NCBI GenBank assembly: GCA_036226585.1
Contig: CP108997.1
Span: 3,224,001-3,288,000 of the forward strand
From: Streptomyces sp. NBC_00708
GTDB lineage: Bacteria; Actinomycetota; Actinomycetes; Streptomycetales; Streptomycetaceae
DNA length: 64,000 nucleotides
Direction: 5' to 3'
In this document: piece by piece, positions 3,380 to 50,590 of the stretch
How positions within the stretch are numbered: position 1 is the stretch's first letter
How the letters are laid out: every line of letters begins with the position of its first letter
The notes under the pieces: model-generated
What the model was told of the DNA's origin: nothing
The model's input: only the letters and a program-made list of their open reading frames with translations
Databases searched by the model: none
Program-made: the position numbers and the translations under genes

Positions 3380-4647
3380 CGGCCGGTGCCCCCGTACACG
3401 ACTGCCTCGTCGGAGTCGCTGTCGAGACCGAAGGCGGTGTGCACGGCGCGCACGGCCTCGTTGACGTCGTCGGCACGGGTGACCACCGAGATGCGGATCT
3501 CGGATGTCGAGATCAGCTCGATGTTCACGCCGGCATCGGACAGCGCCTCGAAGAAGCCCGCGGTGACCCCGGGGTTGGTCTTCATACCCGCGCCGACCAG
3601 GGAGATCTTGGCGATCTGGTCGTCGTAGCGCAGCGAGTCGAAGCCGATCACACCGCGGTTGCGCTCCAGGGCGTCGATGGCCTTGCGGCCTTCGGCCTTC
3701 GGGAGCGTGAACGAGATGTCCGTCAGGCCGGTCGAGGCGGCGGAGACGTTCTGCACCACCATGTCGATGTTGACCTCGGCGTTCGCGATCGTGCGGAAGA
3801 TCGCGGCGGCCTCGCCCGGCTTGTCGGGCACGCCGACGACGGTGATCTTGGCCTCGGAGACGTCATGGGCGACTCCGGAGATGATCGCGTGCTCCACCTG
3901 CTGGTCCCCTTGCGGCTCGTTGCTGACCCAGGTGCCGCGCAGTCCGGAGAAGGACGAGCGGACGTGGATCGGGATGTTGTAACGGCGTGCGTACTCGACG
4001 CACCGGTGCAGCAGCACCTTGGAGCCGGACGCGGCCAGCTCCAGCATGTCCTCGAAGGAGATCCAGTCGATCTTACGGGCCTTCTTCACGACCCGCGGGT
4101 CGGCGGTGAACACGCCGTCCACGTCGGTGTAGATCTCGCAGACCTCGGCATCCAGTGCGGCCGCGAGGGCGACGGCGGTGGTGTCGGACCCGCCGCGGCC
4201 GAGGGTGGTGATGTCCTTCTTGTCCTGGGACACACCCTGGAACCCCGCGACAATCGCGATGTTCCCCTCGTCCAGCGCCGTACGGATACGGCCCGGCGTC
4301 ACATCGATGATGCGCGCTTTGTTGTGGACCGAGTCGGTGATGACGCCTGCCTGGCTGCCGGTGAACGACTGGGCCTCGTGTCCCAGGTTCTTGATCGCCA
4401 TGGCCAGCAGCGCCATGGAAATCCGCTCTCCCGCGGTCAGCAGCATGTCGAACTCACGCCCGGCCGGTATCGGGGATACCTGCTCGGCGAGATCGATCAA
4501 CTCGTCCGTCGTGTCGCCCATCGCTGACACCACGACAACCACCTGGTTGCCGTTCTTCTTGGCATCGACGATTCGCTTGGCGACGCGCTTGATGCCCTCG
4601 GCATCGGCTACGGAGGAGCCTCCGTACTTCTGCACGACAAGGCCCAC
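3376..4647 (-). CDS. lysC: Aspartokinase, alpha/beta-encoding
   Basis: It phosphorylates aspartate in the first committed step of the aspartate family. The 423-residue protein has the [12 protein letters not shown]/aspartate motif at residues 7-15, an amino-acid kinase domain to about 240, and two ACT domains (about 265-415) for feedback control. The GTG start is preceded by GAGGAG at 5-base spacing. Length and ACT layout match the actinobacterial class that makes an alpha subunit plus a shorter beta subunit from an internal start; that start is visible at codon 251. It is the first gene of lysC-asd. Confidence 0.96.
3895..3911 (-). promoter_or_regulatory. Internal ribosome-binding site and GTG for aspartokinase beta subunit
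   Basis: Within lysC, AAGGGG (3906-3911) lies 8 bases before an in-frame GTG (3895-3897). The product would be a 173-residue ACT-domain protein beginning VEHAIISGV. This is where the separate beta subunit of Corynebacterium aspartokinase begins (about Met250). I infer that the gene yields both the full alpha chain and this regulatory beta chain. Confidence 0.65.
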
Positions 4648-5005
4648 GTGCGCTCCTCGCTCAGTCCATTACTGCGGTCGGCTCAGTTTAACGAGCAGCC
4701 CGGAAACGCCGCGCTGATATCACATGATGAGATGTCCCGCTCACCACGTGATCAACAGCGTGTCGCTTCCGAGCCGCTCGTACCGCGCTGCTGCCCAGCG
4801 GACCCGTACGCATTCCCCTTTGTGGCCCAGCCCACACGGGGCCGGGGCACCGGATTCCTACGCTCCGCGGGTGCGGCAGCAGTCGGTGCCGTGGCCGGGC
4901 GGCGCCACAGCGCTTCACACGCCGCGCCGCGTCCGCCTCCGCCCCCGCGCGGCGCCCCGGCCCCAGCATGGGCGGAACGGTCCGTTCCGGCTTCGGAGGT
5001 TTCTC
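4648..5005. other. Divergent intergenic region upstream of lysC
   Basis: These 358 bases separate lysC from the small secreted-protein gene. I see no credible coding sequence in either direction. It must hold both promoters. A short AT-richer stretch with TGATATCA and TCACATGATGA (about 4715-4735) is the most promoter-like part. No lysine riboswitch fold was recognisable by eye. Confidence 0.5.
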
Positions 5006-5290
5006 GTGCGCAAGCAGATCCGTGTGTTCCCGCTGCTCCTGGCCCTGGCGGCCGTGCCGGTGGCGGCCTCGCCCGCTCGGGCCGGCGGGACCTGTTTCGC
5101 CACGCACGCGGACGCGCCGATCTACGCGGGCGACAACCCGTGGACCGACATCGCCGGCTACCTGGACCCGGGCATTCCGGTGAACGGCACGCGTGCGGGG
5201 GCGGACGCGCCGTGGCAGGTGTCGCGCACCGACAACGGGGCGCGGCTGGGCTTCATGCGGCCGCAGGATCTGCGGTGCGACGGCGGGTGA
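5006..5290 (+). CDS. Small secreted protein, SH3-like
   Basis: This is a 94-residue exported protein. A GTG start follows GGAGGT (4995-5000) by 5 bases. An N-terminal signal peptide (MRKQIRVFPLLLALAAVPVAA, cleavage after about residue 26, PARA) leads to a mature part of about 68 residues. That part has two Cys and a layout (APIYAGDNPWTDIAGYL, later GARLGFM) reminiscent of small bacterial SH3 domains found in Streptomyces secreted proteins. The disulfide pair and SH3 fold are inferences. It stands alone, convergent with the DUF5063 gene. Confidence 0.75.
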   Translation: MRKQIRVFPLLLALAAVPVAASPARAGGTCFATHADAPIYAGDNPWTDIAGYLDPGIPVNGTRAGADAPWQVSRTDNGARLGFMRPQDLRCDGG

Positions 5291-5296
5291 CGGCCG

Positions 5297-5956
5297 CTAC
5301 TTCACCGGCCGCAGGCCCAGCGGCCCCGCGATCTCCTCGACCATGACGCGGCCCGCCTCCTCGGCCAGGTCGTCGTCGGCGGCGTCCTGGTCGATGTCCA
5401 GGCCGTCCAGCTCCTGGAGGGGCTGGTTGAGGCGGATATGGGCGATGAGGGACTGCAGGGCGCGCAGGGTGGCGGAGGCCGTGGAGCCCCAGTTGGAGAA
5501 GTAGGAGAACTGCCACCACCACAGGGCCTCGGTGGTCCGGCCCTCCTCGTAGTGGGCCAGGCCGTGGCGCAGATCGGTGACGAGGTCGGCCAGGTCGTCC
5601 GAGATGCGGGCCGCGACCGGCGCCTTGCGGGGCTCGTACGGGTCGAAGACCTCGGAGTAGACGTCGATCGGCTCCAGGAGGGCCGCGAAGCGCTCGCGCA
5701 GGCCGTCGGCGTCCGGCTCGGCGCCCAGGTCCGGCTCGTAGCGCTCGTCCGGGAGGATGTCCTCGTACGCGCCGAGCCGGCCGCCGGCCAACAGCAGCTG
5801 GGAGACCTGGAGGAGCAGGACCGGAACGGCCTCTTCCGGCTCCTCGACCTTGGACACCTCGGCGACCGCGACGATGAACGTCTTGATCTGGTCCGCGATC
5901 TGGACCGCGAAATCGCCGGGGTCCTGCGTGACGGTGTTCAACGTGGCGTCAGACAT
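5297..5956 (-). CDS. DUF5063 family protein
   Basis: This is a 219-residue acidic, soluble, mostly helical protein with no signal peptide or membrane segment. The central part (about 95-180), with ISDDLADLVTDLRHGLAHY and the Trp-rich EALWWWQFSYFSNWG, is the signature of DUF5063 proteins of actinobacteria, whose function is unknown. It lies 92 bases downstream of recR on the same strand, so it may belong to the ybaB-recR transcript. A DNA-repair role would only be guilt by association. Confidence 0.85.
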   Translation of the reverse strand: MSDATLNTVTQDPGDFAVQIADQIKTFIVAVAEVSKVEEPEEAVPVLLLQVSQLLLAGGRLGAYEDILPDERYEPDLGAEPDADGLRERFAALLEPIDVYSEVFDPYEPRKAPVAARISDDLADLVTDLRHGLAHYEEGRTTEALWWWQFSYFSNWGSTASATLRALQSLIAHIRLNQPLQELDGLDIDQDAADDDLAEEAGRVMVEEIAGPLGLRPVK

Positions 5957-46674: not shown

Positions 46675-47079
46675 ATGGCAGTCGACGTACACCGGCCCGG
46701 CCCGGAATACCTCGCGTTCTGGCGCGAGAACCACGTGTGCACGCTCACCACGCTCCGCCCCGACGGCACCCCGCACGTGGTGCCCGTCTGCGTGACGTAC
46801 GACCCCGAGGCCGGCCTGGCCCGGGTGATCACCAACAAGCGCAGCCGCAAGGTGGCCCACATCCTCGCCGCGGGCCCGGACGGCGCCCGCGTCGCGGCGT
46901 GCCAGGTGCACCGCCGCCGCTGGGCGACCCTGGAGGGCGTGGCCAGGATCAGCACGGACCCGGAGCGGGTCGCGGAGGCCGTACGCCGCCACACGGAGCG
47001 CTACGACCGGGTGCCCTCGCCCAATCCGGACCGGGTCGTCATCGAGATCACCCTGGACCGGGCGCTCGGCCGCGGCTGA
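46675..47079 (+). CDS. PPOX-class (FDOR) flavin/F420-dependent oxidoreductase family protein
   Basis: A 134-residue split-barrel protein of the pyridoxamine-phosphate-oxidase superfamily. The early strands CTLTTLRPDGTPHVVPV are typical of flavin- or F420-binding members. LARVITNKRSRKVAHI and HRRRWATLEGVARI are the cofactor phosphate-binding pattern of F420-type enzymes. It cannot be called PdxH. The ribosome site is weak (GGGG, 2 bases). It is divergent from clpB, whose HAIR boxes lie in the shared promoter region. Confidence 0.85.
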   Translation: MAVDVHRPGPEYLAFWRENHVCTLTTLRPDGTPHVVPVCVTYDPEAGLARVITNKRSRKVAHILAAGPDGARVAACQVHRRRWATLEGVARISTDPERVAEAVRRHTERYDRVPSPNPDRVVIEITLDRALGRG

Positions 47080-47111
47080 ACCCGTCCGCGCGTCCGTCCG
47101 TCCGGACACAG

Positions 47112-47154
47112 CACAACGGCGCCACCGTGTTCAGGTCACGGTGGCGCCGTTGTG
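47112..47154. terminator. Bidirectional terminator
   Basis: Eighteen-base perfect arms (CACAACGGCGCCACCGTG and complement) with a 7-base loop lie between the convergent PPOX and Rieske-like genes. It closes off the peptide/Rieske pair. Confidence 0.9.
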
Positions 47155-47195
47155 TGGGGGAAGTGACTGAGCGACGTGGAACGACGGGGGATCGC

Positions 47196-47516
47196 TCAGG
47201 CACTGCGGGGGGTGGCGGAAATGGCTTCTGGTTCGAACAGCTGGTGGTCACGCTGCGCGAGATTCACAAAGATCATGTCGTACCGGATGGCACAGCGAAC
47301 CGGCTGCGGCGCGCCTCGCGGCTTGCGCAGGCAACGGTAGGCGCGAACCTCTCCGTCGTCCTCGCGGGCGACGACGACCGGGTCGCCGAACAGAGTGACC
47401 ATCAACGAGTCACCACGGTGAGGAAGCGCCGTGACGAGATCGATGAAATGCCACCCTGAACGGTAGGCCGTCGCCATCTCACGCCTGAAGGTGCGGTCGT
47501 CCGGCGGGGTGGTCAT
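47196..47516 (-). CDS. Small Rieske-like protein without cluster ligands
   Basis: A 106-residue soluble protein. Its order of motifs resembles the N-terminus of Rieske-type ring-hydroxylating oxygenases: YRSGWHFIDLVTALPHRGD, then VTLFGDPVVVAREDDGEVRAY. Where Rieske proteins have C-x-H and C-x2-H ligands, it has RCLRKPRGAPQPVRCAIRYD, with two Cys and no ligand His. It probably cannot hold a [2Fe-2S] cluster and may use the fold for binding only. The ATG begins one base beyond the stop of the repeat-peptide gene, so the two are one operon. Function unknown. Confidence 0.7.
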   Translation of the reverse strand: MTTPPDDRTFRREMATAYRSGWHFIDLVTALPHRGDSLMVTLFGDPVVVAREDDGEVRAYRCLRKPRGAPQPVRCAIRYDMIFVNLAQRDHQLFEPEAISATPRSA

Positions 47517-47517
47517 G

Positions 47518-47799
47518 TCAGGCGCCCGCCCGGCTCGGCTGGATCCAGGCGATGTCGCCGGGGGTCGCGGCCTGAACACGCCACGCGATGTCGGACGGCG
47601 TGGCCTTTCCGCCGAACCAGGCGATGTCGCCGGTCGCGTCCGCCCGGGTCGACCAGGCAATGTCTCCTGCCGCCGATCCGCCCCCGATCTTCGAGGCGAT
47701 GCCGCTGCCGCTCAGGGCCGCGAGACCCAGAGCCGCGACGAACGAGGCGGCAAGCGCCGAGCGAAGCATTCGCTTATACATAGTCGGCTTCGTCCTCAC
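47518..47799 (-). CDS. Secreted peptide with four GDIAW repeats
   Basis: A 93-residue product with a signal peptide (basic MYKRMLRSALAAS then FVAALGLAALSG, cleavage likely after GSGIA). The mature part of about 55 residues is four near-equal 12-13-residue units, each ending in Asp-Ile-Ala-Trp: SAAGDIAW, DATGDIAW, ATPSDIAW, ATPGDIAW. I know of no named family for it. Multi-core layout suggests a peptide processed into four signals or products, but no protease or RiPP enzyme is encoded beside it. GTG 47799 or ATG 47781 may be the start. It is co-oriented with the Rieske-like gene and divergent from a LuxR regulator across 110 bases. Confidence 0.75.
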   Translation of the reverse strand: MRTKPTMYKRMLRSALAASFVAALGLAALSGSGIASKIGGGSAAGDIAWSTRADATGDIAWFGGKATPSDIAWRVQAATPGDIAWIQPSRAGA

Positions 47800-47874
47800 T
47801 TGTGGATTCTTCTCCCCCGCACCAAAGACGATGTCTCACCTGGGCACACGAACACCACTGAGTCGATGCATCAT

Positions 47875-47894
47875 GTTCCTGCATGTTCAGGAAC
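47875..47894. promoter_or_regulatory. Inverted repeat in the peptide/LuxR divergent promoter
   Basis: GTTCCTG-N6-CAGGAAC is a perfect dyad 16-35 bases before the first LuxR start. The left part, CATGTTCCTGCATG, is shared with the promoter of the second regulator. Likely an operator for one of these LuxR proteins (inference). Confidence 0.6.
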
Positions 47895-47909
47895 CTGGGG
47901 GGTGGACAA

Positions 47910-48893
47910 ATGGTCACAAGTGATACAAAGCCGACACATCCTCATGGCATCACTGAGCTGTGTGACGAAGGAAGGCGTCTCTACGCAAGTGCGTTGCGTT
48001 CAGGCCGCATCGCGCGGGCCGAGGTCGAACCCGCCCCCTGCCTCATGGACTTCGCGCTGCTGCACCCCGACCCCGACGACGCCGCCTGGCTCAGGCCCGT
48101 ACTGCCGTCGGCCGCGCTGGCGAAGCATCTGAACCCCATCGAGCGCGAGATCCAGGAGCGCCGCCGGCACTCGGTCCGACTGGCGGAATCTTTCGTACCG
48201 TTCATGGACATCAGCGCGCAGGACGCACCGACGACCCACGCCATCACCGTGCTGGAGGGCTTCAACCGGATCAACGCGGCGCTCGATCTGGCCACTGCAG
48301 AGTGCCTGACCGAGGTCCTCACCGTCCAGCCCGGCGGCGGCCGGAGCGAGGACCGGCTCAGCGAGGCGCTGGAGCGCGGACTGTCCGTCGTGGACCGCGG
48401 TGTCAGCATTCGTACGCTCTACCAGCACACGGTCCGCCACAGTCCCGGAACCCTGGCCTACGCCGAGCAGATCGCCAACGAGCACGTCGAGATCCGCACC
48501 CTCGAGGAGCTCATCGAACGGCTCATCATCTTCGACCGCACGGTCGCGTTCATCCCGGCGACGGACGACCGGCAGAACGCCCTGGAACTGCGCCATCCGG
48601 GTCTCGTCGCGTATCTCGTCAAGGTGTTCGAGCAGCTGTGGGCGCGGGCGGCCCCCCTGCGCGAAGAGATCAAGTACGACTCCGTACCCCGCGGCCTCAG
48701 CGGTGTCCAGCGTTCCATAGCCCAACTGCTCGTCGAGGGCCACGTCGACGACTCGATAGCACGGCGCCTCGGGATGAACGTCCGCACCTGCCGGGCCCAT
48801 GTCGCCAAGCTCGCCGCCGCGCTCGGCAGCAACAGCCGCGCCCAGCTCGGTTACCTGATCGCCCGGTCAGGAATCCTCGATCAGGACTCCTGA
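47910..48893 (+). CDS. LuxR-type HTH regulator, paralogue 1
   Basis: This is a 327-residue transcription factor. The first ~230 residues form an alpha/beta domain with ITELCDEGRRLYASAL, VEPAPCLMDFALLHPD and EELIERLIIFDRTVAFIP, resembling the TrmB/PLD-like sensor of some Streptomyces regulators. There is no receiver or PAS motif. The C-terminal LuxR helix-turn-helix (about 262-320) has LSGVQRSIAQLLVEG and NVRTCRAHVAKLAA. ATG 47910 is favoured over 47883 because GGTGG lies 4 bases upstream and the paralogue begins at the same place. It is divergent from the GDIAW peptide gene. Confidence 0.88.
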   Translation: MVTSDTKPTHPHGITELCDEGRRLYASALRSGRIARAEVEPAPCLMDFALLHPDPDDAAWLRPVLPSAALAKHLNPIEREIQERRRHSVRLAESFVPFMDISAQDAPTTHAITVLEGFNRINAALDLATAECLTEVLTVQPGGGRSEDRLSEALERGLSVVDRGVSIRTLYQHTVRHSPGTLAYAEQIANEHVEIRTLEELIERLIIFDRTVAFIPATDDRQNALELRHPGLVAYLVKVFEQLWARAAPLREEIKYDSVPRGLSGVQRSIAQLLVEGHVDDSIARRLGMNVRTCRAHVAKLAAALGSNSRAQLGYLIARSGILDQDS

Positions 48894-49041
48894 CCGGATC
48901 GGCCCCGAAACCCCACCCCCCGGGCCGGCGGGCGCGCCACGCAACGGGGGAGAGCATGGCCACGCCCTTGATCAGCCGGGGGAGTTCCCGGCTCCCCCGA
49001 CACCCCCACACTGACCCGCCGGACTACGCTTCCACCACCGT

Positions 49042-49058
49042 CATCTTGCTGCATTGCC
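49042..49058 (+). promoter_or_regulatory. Motif shared with the first LuxR promoter
   Basis: CATCTTGCTGCATTGCC, 35 bases before the second LuxR start, aligns with CATGTTCCTGCATGTTC at 47872-47888, 38 bases before the first. The downstream GGGGGGT patches also align. Probably a shared operator or promoter element kept since the duplication. Confidence 0.5.
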
Positions 49059-49076
49059 GAAAGTGGGGGGTCACAC

Positions 49077-50120
49077 ATGCGCAAGGACGAGGACATATCG
49101 CACCACCCGCACGGCGAACTCGAACTGTGCGACGCCGGCATCAGAACGTACACAGAGGCCCTCACGGCCGGCCGCATGCCACGCTCCGCGCTCGAACCCG
49201 TCCCCTGCCTCACCGAATTGGCGCTCGTTCACCCCGACCCCCAGGACGATGACTGGATCCGTCCGGTGCCGCCCTCCGCCGCCCTGACCCATCTGCTGCA
49301 GCCCGTCACCAGAGAGATCCACGAGCGCATCCGGCTCTCCGCCGCCCTGGCCGACTCCCTCGCGCCCCTGGCGTCCGTCGCCAGCACCGACCCCAATCTG
49401 GCCATCACCGTCCTCGAAGGCATCCCGCTGATCGAGGCGGCCGTCCAGAACGCCACGGACGACGCGCGGGAGGAGGTCCTGACCCTTCAGCCCAGCGGCA
49501 ACCGGCCCGCGGAACAGCTCAAGAAGGGGCTGGAACTCGCCCTGTCCATGGCGGAGCGCGGCGTGACGCTGCGCCACATCTACCAGCACCCCGCCCGCTA
49601 CAGCCCGGCCATCAAGGCGTACGTGGACGAGGTGCCGCCGGGCCACATCCAGGTCCGCACCATCGAGCAGACGGTCGAGCGCCTCTTCGTCTTCGACCGC
49701 ACCGTCGCGTTCATCCCCGCCAACGCCCGCCGCGACGTGGCCCTGGAGATCCGCCACCCGGCGCTCGTGCGCTACCTGATCCAGGTGTACGAGGTGCTGT
49801 GGGCCCAGGCCAAACCCCTCACCACGCCCCTCCAGGCGCCCGCGCACGACATGCCGGTCACCGCCGTCCAACTGAGCGTCGCCCGCCTCCTCGTGGAGGG
49901 CAACACCGACCAGATCGTGGCCCGCAAGCTGGCCATCAGCGTCCGCACCTGCCGCGCCCACATCGCCAAGCTCATGCGGACCCTCGGCGCCACCAGCCGC
50001 ACCCACCTCGGCGCCCTGCTCGTCCAGTCCGGCACCGTCGAAGGACCCGCGGGCCCCGCCGGCCCCGTACCGCCGTACACGGCGAAGCGGCCCGTCGCGC
50101 CGGAGACAACTCCGGAATGA
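49077..50120 (+). CDS. LuxR-type HTH regulator, paralogue 2
   Basis: A 347-residue tandem paralogue of the preceding gene. Corresponding blocks are HPHGELELCDAGIRTYTEAL, LEPVPCLTELALVHPDPQ, EQTVERLFVFDRTVAFIPA and the C-terminal LuxR helix-turn-helix with VTAVQLSVARLLVEGNTDQ and ISVRTCRAHIAKLMRTLG. A Pro/Ala/Gly tail of about 30 residues is unique to this copy. ATG follows GGGGGGT by 5 bases. It is convergent with hspR. The N-terminal domain probably binds a ligand, unknown. Confidence 0.88.
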   Translation: MRKDEDISHHPHGELELCDAGIRTYTEALTAGRMPRSALEPVPCLTELALVHPDPQDDDWIRPVPPSAALTHLLQPVTREIHERIRLSAALADSLAPLASVASTDPNLAITVLEGIPLIEAAVQNATDDAREEVLTLQPSGNRPAEQLKKGLELALSMAERGVTLRHIYQHPARYSPAIKAYVDEVPPGHIQVRTIEQTVERLFVFDRTVAFIPANARRDVALEIRHPALVRYLIQVYEVLWAQAKPLTTPLQAPAHDMPVTAVQLSVARLLVEGNTDQIVARKLAISVRTCRAHIAKLMRTLGATSRTHLGALLVQSGTVEGPAGPAGPVPPYTAKRPVAPETTPE

Positions 50121-50143: not shown

Positions 50144-50590
50144 TCAGTCCTTCGGCCGCTTCGGGCGCCAGACCACCAGGGCGCTCGTCTGCTGCACGTC
50201 CTGGTACGGCACCAGGTCGCGCCGGTACGACGCGTGGACCTGGGCCTCGCGCTGCTGCATCGCCGCCGCCGCTCCGTCCACGGCCGCCGAGAGTTCGGCG
50301 ACGCGCTGCTGGAGCGCCGCGACCTGGTTCTCCAGCTCGATGATGCGCTTGATACCGGCGAGGTTGATGCCCTCGTCCTGCGACAGCTGCTGCACCGTGC
50401 GCAGCAGTTCGATGTCGCGGGCCGAGTAGCGCCTGCCGCGTCCGGCCGTGCGGTCGGGGGAGACCAGGCCGAGGCGGTCGTACTGGCGCAGTGTCTGCGG
50501 GTGCAGGCCCGAGAGCTGGGCCGCGATCGAGATCACGTACACCGGGGACTCGTCGGTCAGTTCGTACGGATTACGCCGTCGGCCGTCCAC
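50144..50590 (-). CDS. hspR: Heat-shock repressor HspR (MerR family)
   Basis: This is a 148-residue autoregulatory repressor of dnaK and clpB. The MerR-type winged helix (about 16-85) has YVISIAAQLSGLHPQTLRQYDRLGLVSP and RGRRYSARDIELLR in two parts. A coiled coil (about 88-115) follows. The C-terminal tail ALVVWRPKRPKD is where DnaK is thought to act in the family. A GTG start lies one base past the dnaJ stop. It is last in dnaK-grpE-dnaJ-hspR, and its targets are the HAIR boxes at 46529-46586 and 54444-54516. Confidence 0.97.
   Translation of the reverse strand: MDGRRRNPYELTDESPVYVISIAAQLSGLHPQTLRQYDRLGLVSPDRTAGRGRRYSARDIELLRTVQQLSQDEGINLAGIKRIIELENQVAALQQRVAELSAAVDGAAAAMQQREAQVHASYRRDLVPYQDVQQTSALVVWRPKRPKD

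Follow-up and report, generated by a model that had tools for sequence, protein, structure and literature searches.

What does a gene for a secreted-looking repeat peptide do between clpB and hspR of a Streptomyces genome, back to back with a LuxR-type regulator? The question was raised by a first-pass annotation of a 64,000-nucleotide stretch of Streptomyces sp. NBC_00708 (GenBank assembly GCA_036226585.1, contig CP108997.1, positions 3,224,001 to 3,288,000 of the forward strand), hereafter the window, in which a peptide gene, a Rieske-like gene, a divergent LuxR gene (LuxR1), a second LuxR gene (LuxR2) and hspR were described. This layout was confirmed from the sequence: the peptide and Rieske-like genes are on the (-) strand, LuxR1 and LuxR2 are on the (+) strand, and hspR faces LuxR2. 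The array occupies the interval from clpB to hspR, and LuxR1 is divergent from the peptide gene (Table 1). Signalling in Streptomyces is known mainly for gamma-butyrolactones, and to our knowledge few LuxR proteins of actinobacteria have a known natural ligand. The comparisons below make it highly probable that the gene pair encodes a multi-copy peptide pheromone and a cytoplasmic TrmB-like LuxR receptor, with pherotypes.

Conservation was assessed in 295 Streptomyces genomes. Matches to LuxR1 (E 1e-40) were obtained in 265 of them, to the Rieske-like protein (E 1e-4) in 251, and to the peptide profile (E 0.01) in 221. When strong matches were tallied by hand (LuxR1 E ≤1e-80, Rieske-like protein E ≤1e-40; genomes absent from the listings counted as no match), both proteins were found in 242 genomes, neither in 48, and one in 5, i.e., the LuxR1 and Rieske-like genes are present and lost together. 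The five discordant genomes comprised four with a strong LuxR1 match and a divergent Rieske match (G047, G050, G105, G184) and one with a LuxR1 fragment (G063). No full-length match of the Rieske-like protein was found in another genus among 150 genomes of the family at E 1e-6 (31 matched, of which 30 belong to the same genus and the other has a partial match in a frame of 455 residues) or 296 genomes of the class at E 1e-8 (25 matched, 23 from the same genus and two with partial matches inside frames of >600 residues).

Two hundred loci were read, 120 by place (chosen via Rieske or peptide matches) and 80 found via the Rieske-like protein, which makes the sample non-random. A small hydrophobic open reading frame (ORF) with [DEN]xxW was present in the gap of all 200, including loci without a peptide-profile match. 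The peptide gene is thus conserved in other Streptomyces, and the opposite pattern, LuxR genes conserved everywhere without the peptide, was tested for and did not appear. The profile was dropped as a test of presence: L020, L022, and L029, for example, lack a profile match yet carry an EPTW or EPSW peptide. Its shortfall (221/295) is at least partly its own, since unmatched loci held a peptide with another repeat word. The order recurring in the 120 loci was clpB, PPOX, Rieske-like, LuxR1, zero to four or more additional LuxR genes, and hspR; PPOX was undetected in some of these loci, and some stretches end short of hspR. The analysis set consisted of 177 unique loci, obtained from 201 (window included) after the removal of three without readable ClpB, Rieske-like protein or LuxR1 and the merging of duplicates.

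The translated 93-residue precursor of the window has a hydrophobic, export-like N-terminal segment followed by four DIAW repeats, and its homologs have a signal-like start in common. The general repeat word is [DE]-x1-x2-W, with 1 to 18 words per precursor and 39 word types in all. The word was uniform in 147 of the 159 precursors having two or more repeats. In the first set of 120 loci, 106 precursors had multiple words, and 99 of these were uniform. Repeats of one protein agreed at the word's four positions with identities of 1.00, 0.99, 0.99, and 1.00; identity was 0.30–0.39 in the six residues preceding the word, and the residue directly after the word was partly common within a protein (0.69). 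Between proteins, the two middle positions agreed at just 0.19 and 0.20. Repeat pairs with dissimilar flanks carried the same word in 433 of 439 cases, and 423 of their 1309 same-residue codon pairs within the word differed. Mere DNA copying would equalise spacers and codons as well, and the protein word itself is therefore kept uniform by selection. The extreme precursor (L131, genome G269) has 296 residues and 18 DTGW words. Five peptide homologs carry the database name 5'-nucleotidase, which looks like a propagated annotation error.

Word and LuxR1 turn over jointly between near-identical flanks. Pairs of loci were compared in which a 300-residue part of ClpB was ≥97% identical. Mean LuxR1 identity was 0.964 in same-word pairs (n=35, range 0.86–1.0) vs 0.732 in different-word pairs (n=96, range 0.51–0.90). 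The Rieske-like protein (0.987 vs 0.975), HspR (0.989 vs 0.986), DnaJ, and PPOX were nearly equal in the two classes. The area under the curve for separating the classes was 0.9997 for LuxR1, 0.698 for the Rieske-like protein, 0.557 for HspR, 0.624 for DnaJ, and 0.524 for PPOX. In the comparison of L018 with L082, for example, DNA identity was 0.974 for the Rieske-like gene and 0.675 across the peptide gap, and within LuxR1 it was 0.698 for the sensor part and 0.817 for the helix-turn-helix (HTH) part; the HTH is the best conserved part of LuxR1 between loci with different words. The words required 51 changes on the LuxR1 tree, 95 on the Rieske tree, 98 on the ClpB tree, and 94 on the joined flank tree, and label shuffles (200) required at least 137.

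Covariation was measured by background-corrected mutual information across the 177 loci, whose effective number is 54. Position x1 covaried with residues 135 (z 11.5) and 156 (z 9.5) of LuxR1, and the D/E position with its residues 73 (z 7.8) and 229 (z 7.2); no tested column of the Rieske-like protein (45) or ClpB (96) was above z 2.1. With Ser at x1, LuxR1 had Met135 and Asp156 in 42/42 loci, and with Thr, Val135 and Asp156 in 27/27. Ile was accompanied by Val135 in 50/50 (residue 156: Gly 43, Ala 6, Ser 1) and Pro by Leu135 in 32/32 (residue 156: Val 25, Met 6, Leu 1); Leu and Val were more varied. The pairing is chemically sensible, offering an acid for hydroxyl side chains and room for branched ones, and contact of x1 with residues 135 and 156 is strongly suggested by this sequence covariation. 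Independent contrasts on the flank tree agreed in 9/9 supported pairs for Ser/Thr with Asp156 (p 0.004) and in 8/8 for Ser/Thr with Met/Val135 (p 0.008), and two pairs were available there for Pro. On a LuxR1 tree built without columns 135, 156, and 207, Ser/Thr with Met/Val135 agreed in 6/6 supported pairs (p 0.03).

The rule was fixed first and then applied to 70 further loci, from which 10 training repeats and the window's own locus (L218) were excluded. Of the remaining 59, 51 were called right (29 Ser, 8 Thr, 10 Ile/Leu, 2 Pro, 2 Val), seven were not covered by the rule (Ile135 in six, truncation in one), and one was wrong (DFGW with Ala-Ala). Joint allele turnover and residue-level covariation single out LuxR1 as the likely receptor. 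They also support the earlier suggestion of a peptide signal with its own sensor-regulators, in which signalling itself is what we infer.

LuxR1 has the C-terminal GerE HTH of LuxR/GerE regulators. Its residues 11–250 matched TrmB by fold, and in Pfam scans no acyl-homoserine lactone autoinducer-binding domain of LuxR quorum sensors was found. Nor was any tetratricopeptide repeat (TPR) family, the peptide-binding domain of RRNPP receptors; the fold is TrmB/PLD instead. The TrmBL2 profile matched positions 49–243 (E 1.2e-4), and the fold agrees with a TrmB-like N-terminal part plus a PLD-like effector domain.

Between the peptide and LuxR1 genes, GCATCATGTTC was present in 177/177 unique loci, mostly 45 to 57 bases ahead of the start of the LuxR1 match. 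The site of the window extends as a direct repeat, CATGTTC-N3-CATGTTC, and an inverted repeat, GTTCCTG-N6-CAGGAAC (47868–47894); the exact inverted core TTCCTG-N6-CAGGAA was found in 34/177 loci. A regulon search with the 21-base pattern (≤3 mismatches) returned a single site in this genome, that of its own locus, so autoregulation is the one target to which the search points.

The system extends beyond this locus: related peptide-LuxR pairs occur elsewhere in Streptomyces, one of them in this genome, and in Nocardioides. LuxR1-like proteins (E 1e-20) were found in 54 of 197 genomes of the class and in 18 of the 90 genera sampled, and small ORFs with a hydrophobic start and DxxW adjoin distant LuxR relatives. 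Beside Streptomyces paralogs such ORFs are divergent upstream (DSAWG, DSSWGG). The second pair of the window's genome (L309, C1:3664500-3673500) consists of a peptide ORF (5396–5599, +) and a divergent LuxR paralog (4215–5081, −; contig position 3668714); the ORF is secreted-looking, has 68 residues, and contains EDDRWGPIT. No DxxW ORF was found upstream of the other strong paralog in the same genome (C1:4636836). In genus g55, identified as Nocardioides via one 100% identical protein, DxxW ORFs are convergent downstream of the LuxR1-like gene in 7 of 10 loci, with none in the other three. These seven tiny ORFs (L326, L327, L328, L329, L330, L332, L336) have one or two DTSW, DSSW, DTGW or DTTW words, placed 0 to two residues past the AxA-type end of the hydrophobic stretch. 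A divergent layout as the rule for distant pairs thus holds in part.

Residue 156 was acidic in all 11 Ser/Thr pairs listed (Asp 10, Glu 1), and residue 135 was Met in the DSSW pairs (3/3). Three divergent loci of the main type (L288, L289, and L290, with DPTW, DPAW, and DPTW) have Leu135 and Val156, in agreement with the rule. An adjacency scan of 21 distant loci gave five divergent upstream and eight convergent downstream cases, and none in the control zones co-directional upstream and antisense inside the gene. The scan is no independent discovery, since all 13 cases were known before it.

From these computed regularities (co-occurrence, word uniformity, allele coupling, covariation, held-out prediction, and the invariant site), we infer a route through export, cleavage, uptake, binding, regulation, and output. 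The precursor would be exported and cut into short peptides bearing [DE]-x1-x2-W, with several copies per precursor raising the yield. The peptide would re-enter the cytoplasm, likely through an oligopeptide permease, and bind the TrmB-like domain of LuxR1, where residues 135 and 156 would read the side chain of x1. Bound LuxR1 would act through its LuxR HTH, probably on the invariant intergenic site (GCATCATGTTC) and on further targets. As pherotypes, word and LuxR1 would be swapped or co-diversify jointly between genomes, with no change in the Rieske-like partner or the operator.

Several observations weigh against this reading. Words were mixed in 12/159 multi-repeat precursors, and x2 covaries weakly, with LuxR1 residue 152 (z 3.9). 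The LuxR1 tree gives two independent pairs, among those listed, for Ser/Thr with Asp156 and one for Pro; both pairings thus rest on few events. Contrasts of Ile/Leu vs Val with Gly/Ala156 fell short of significance. The held-out loci are relatives of training loci and so not fully independent. Export was judged from a hydrophobic stretch that was itself a criterion for choosing ORFs, and no protease or permease is tied to the locus. Among distant pairs, L294 has a DPAW ORF beside a paralog with Leu135 and Ser156, contrary to the rule unless the ORF is spurious, and Leu135 occurs in three DSAW paralog pairs and five Nocardioides Thr pairs, i.e., residue 135 carries over uncleanly. The co-directional downstream control zone of the adjacency scan gave matches in 3/21 loci (9/21 at a looser setting), so adjacency alone is weak there, and the distant pairs deserve less confidence than the main locus.

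The best surviving alternative is that the peptide is an intracellular anti-regulator of LuxR1 in the same cell and no signal between cells, since covariation suggests contact and not its location. The homologs of the peptide nevertheless have the signal-like start in common (hydrophobic N-termini alone being weak, as a criterion of choice), the seven Nocardioides ORFs place the word just after an AxA-type end, and multi-copy words with allele replacement are typical of signals in known parallels; we regard this alternative as unlikely. The word could also be the core of a small natural product, a multi-core ribosomally synthesised and post-translationally modified peptide (RiPP) or bacteriocin, with LuxR1 as a pathway regulator sensing the mature product. 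Multi-core precursors of this kind keep their cores uniform, and PPOX and the Rieske-like protein are imaginable as tailoring enzymes. Yet the Rieske-like protein is without cluster ligands, PPOX is convergent, outside the allele block and undetected in some loci, and no RiPP enzyme is among the neighbours identified (clpB, PPOX, hspR, dnaJ; genes farther out were not family-scanned), which makes this explanation quite improbable.

Joint turnover could also come from linkage only, the peptide gene and LuxR1 sharing one recombination block with no contact between their products, and both genes do lie inside a block of low DNA identity between near-identical flanks. Against this, the Rieske-like gene, one base from the peptide gene, remains near-identical, and linkage does not account for the concentration of covariation at two residues, for the recurrence of Ser/Thr with Met/Val switches within the LuxR1 tree, or for residue 156 being acidic in the Ser/Thr pairs that lie elsewhere, a second genus included; it appears very improbable. 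That the covariation reflects recognition by LuxR1 of repeat DNA inside the adjacent, repetitive peptide gene is hardly credible, as the covarying residues are in the TrmB/PLD-like domain and not in the HTH, the part most conserved between words, the word is kept as amino acids while codons vary, and the invariant site lies elsewhere.

The proposed pheromone-receptor pair resembles the RRNPP systems of Firmicutes (Rgg-SHP, PlcR-PapR, ComR-XIP), which likewise have a short secreted peptide, a cytoplasmic one-component DNA-binding receptor, adjacent genes, strain-specific pherotypes, and a receptor specificity that covaries with the adjacent peptide (here as sequence covariation). It differs in being actinobacterial, in its TrmB-like fold with a LuxR HTH in place of TPR, and in a mostly multi-copy, uniform four-residue word. 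Joint replacement of signal and receptor between conserved flanks is also known from agr and ComQXPA; here, the changing partner is a transcription factor, and no membrane histidine kinase or modifying enzyme was found among the neighbours identified. As in yeast alpha-factor type precursors, several near-identical signal copies share one secreted precursor, but this one is bacterial, with a four-residue word and spacers without an obvious fixed cleavage motif. Unlike archaeal TrmB/TrmBL2, LuxR1 has an extra C-terminal LuxR HTH, and its putative ligand is a peptide, not a sugar. An oligopeptide signal taken up by the BldK permease in S. coelicolor is comparable, although the available excerpt of PMC11303876 names no precursor gene and shows no link to this locus.

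Searches of open-licence PubMed Central listed no title or abstract start in which these peptides or peptide-LuxR pairs are described, and the available sections of reviews on actinobacterial LuxR proteins and quorum sensing (PMC3466318, PMC4748050) do not mention such pairs. Signalling by peptide pheromones as such is known; the receptor fold, word, and code seen here are new to it as far as searched. In most Streptomyces, the system has the appearance of a bacterial short-peptide language with dialects that had not been described before. On balance, a broader picture seems somewhat more likely than not, in which cytoplasmic TrmB-LuxR proteins make up a family of receptors, spread across the phylum, for short secreted [DE]xxW peptides. 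Their recognition code would be readable, pherotypes could differ even among close relatives, and one genome could hold several orthogonal pairs. They would form a general actinomycete peptide language controlling differentiation or antibiotic production, possibly including the BldK-imported peptide.

SCO3664, SCO3665, and SCO3666 of S. coelicolor are presumably located between clpB and hspR and are candidates for LuxR1. According to PMC3282765, SCO3665 (327 aa) and SCO3666 (394 aa) are LuxR proteins, and insertions in a gene group including SCO3664 ("regulator") are reported in PMC6585502 to raise actinorhodin >50-fold, in some mutants >200-fold. If the system controls antibiotic production, to which these SCO3664 data may point, its peptides could awaken silent gene clusters in one species after another. 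If the receptor assignment is true, the TrmB-like fold would join the known peptide-pheromone receptors, and protein-peptide recognition could be studied on the co-evolved pairs that these loci supply as a natural data set. The word is largely predictable from two receptor residues, so the question is directly testable with cheap synthetic tetra- to hexapeptides.

Table 1. Features of the peptide-LuxR locus and its borders (positions in the window).
Feature	Position	Strand	Evidence
Peptide precursor gene, 93 aa	47518..47799	-	ORF; homologs; [DEN]xxW ORF at same place in 200/200 loci read
Repeat word 1, DIAW, residues 46-49	47653..47664	-	Translation
Repeat word 2, DIAW, residues 58-61	47617..47628	-	Translation
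Repeat word 3, DIAW, residues 70-73	47581..47592	-	Translation
Repeat word 4, DIAW, residues 82-85	47545..47556	-	Translation
Ligandless Rieske-like protein, 106 aa; accessory	47196..47516	-	ORF; start 1 base past peptide stop codon
Candidate operator GCATCATGTTCCTGCATGTTCAGGAAC	47868..47894	+	GCATCATGTTC in 177/177 unique loci
LuxR1, candidate peptide receptor; TrmB/PLD-like residues 11-250, GerE/LuxR HTH 258-325 (numbering from 47913)	47910..48893	+	Best start 47910
LuxR1 residue 135 codon (Val)	48315..48317	+	Covariation with peptide x1
LuxR1 residue 156 codon (Gly)	48378..48380	+	Covariation with peptide x1
LuxR2, tandem paralog, 50% identical	49077..50120	+	Variable array part
Hairpin, 19-bp stem, between convergent PPOX and Rieske-like genes	47111..47155	.	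-40.8 kcal/mol; no T tract
F420-dependent PPOX-class oxidoreductase gene, flanking; outside allele block	46675..47079	+	Family scan, comparison of loci
hspR (MerR family), flanking, right border	50144..50590	-	Family scan, comparison of loci

The Rieske-like protein, counted as part of the system in the first-pass annotation, accompanies LuxR1; as a specificity partner it was rejected, having no covarying column and little exchange. It appears to have the Rieske fold and lacks the cluster ligands: C-x-H is aligned as R-x-P, there is no C-x-x-H, and Cys75-x-x-Arg78 is invariant in 121 sequences. It is the most constant part of the locus (51 invariant columns among 34 aligned relatives). The invariant Cys62 and Cys75 are not the usual ligands; they possibly form a disulfide or serve another use. 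The protein may, as a guess, help maturation or modulate LuxR1. The hairpin left of the Rieske-like gene, earlier called a strong terminator, has the strong stem and lacks a T tract; it is a probable bidirectional terminator.

Of the two tandem LuxR regulators, LuxR1 stands as the likely receptor, and LuxR2 was rejected as a fixed partner: many loci lack it or hold it in multiple copies, the number of further LuxR genes ranging from zero to at least four. In L018, L059, L081, L104, and L115, three or four further LuxR paralogs follow LuxR1, some cut by the stretch end. Among tandem (+) copies, for which the alignment is less sure, Asp156 was found in 34/36 at Ser/Thr loci vs 3/52 at other loci; these copies thus mostly obey the Asp156 rule, a hint of several receptors for one peptide. 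A conserved, reversed extra LuxR copy near hspR (e.g., L069:5213-6157, −), also less surely aligned, had Asp156 in 0/60 cases and did not vary with the word: Val-Ala-Phe occupied aligned positions 135/156/207 in 55/60, regardless of the local word. This copy is perhaps tuned to a different, constant ligand.

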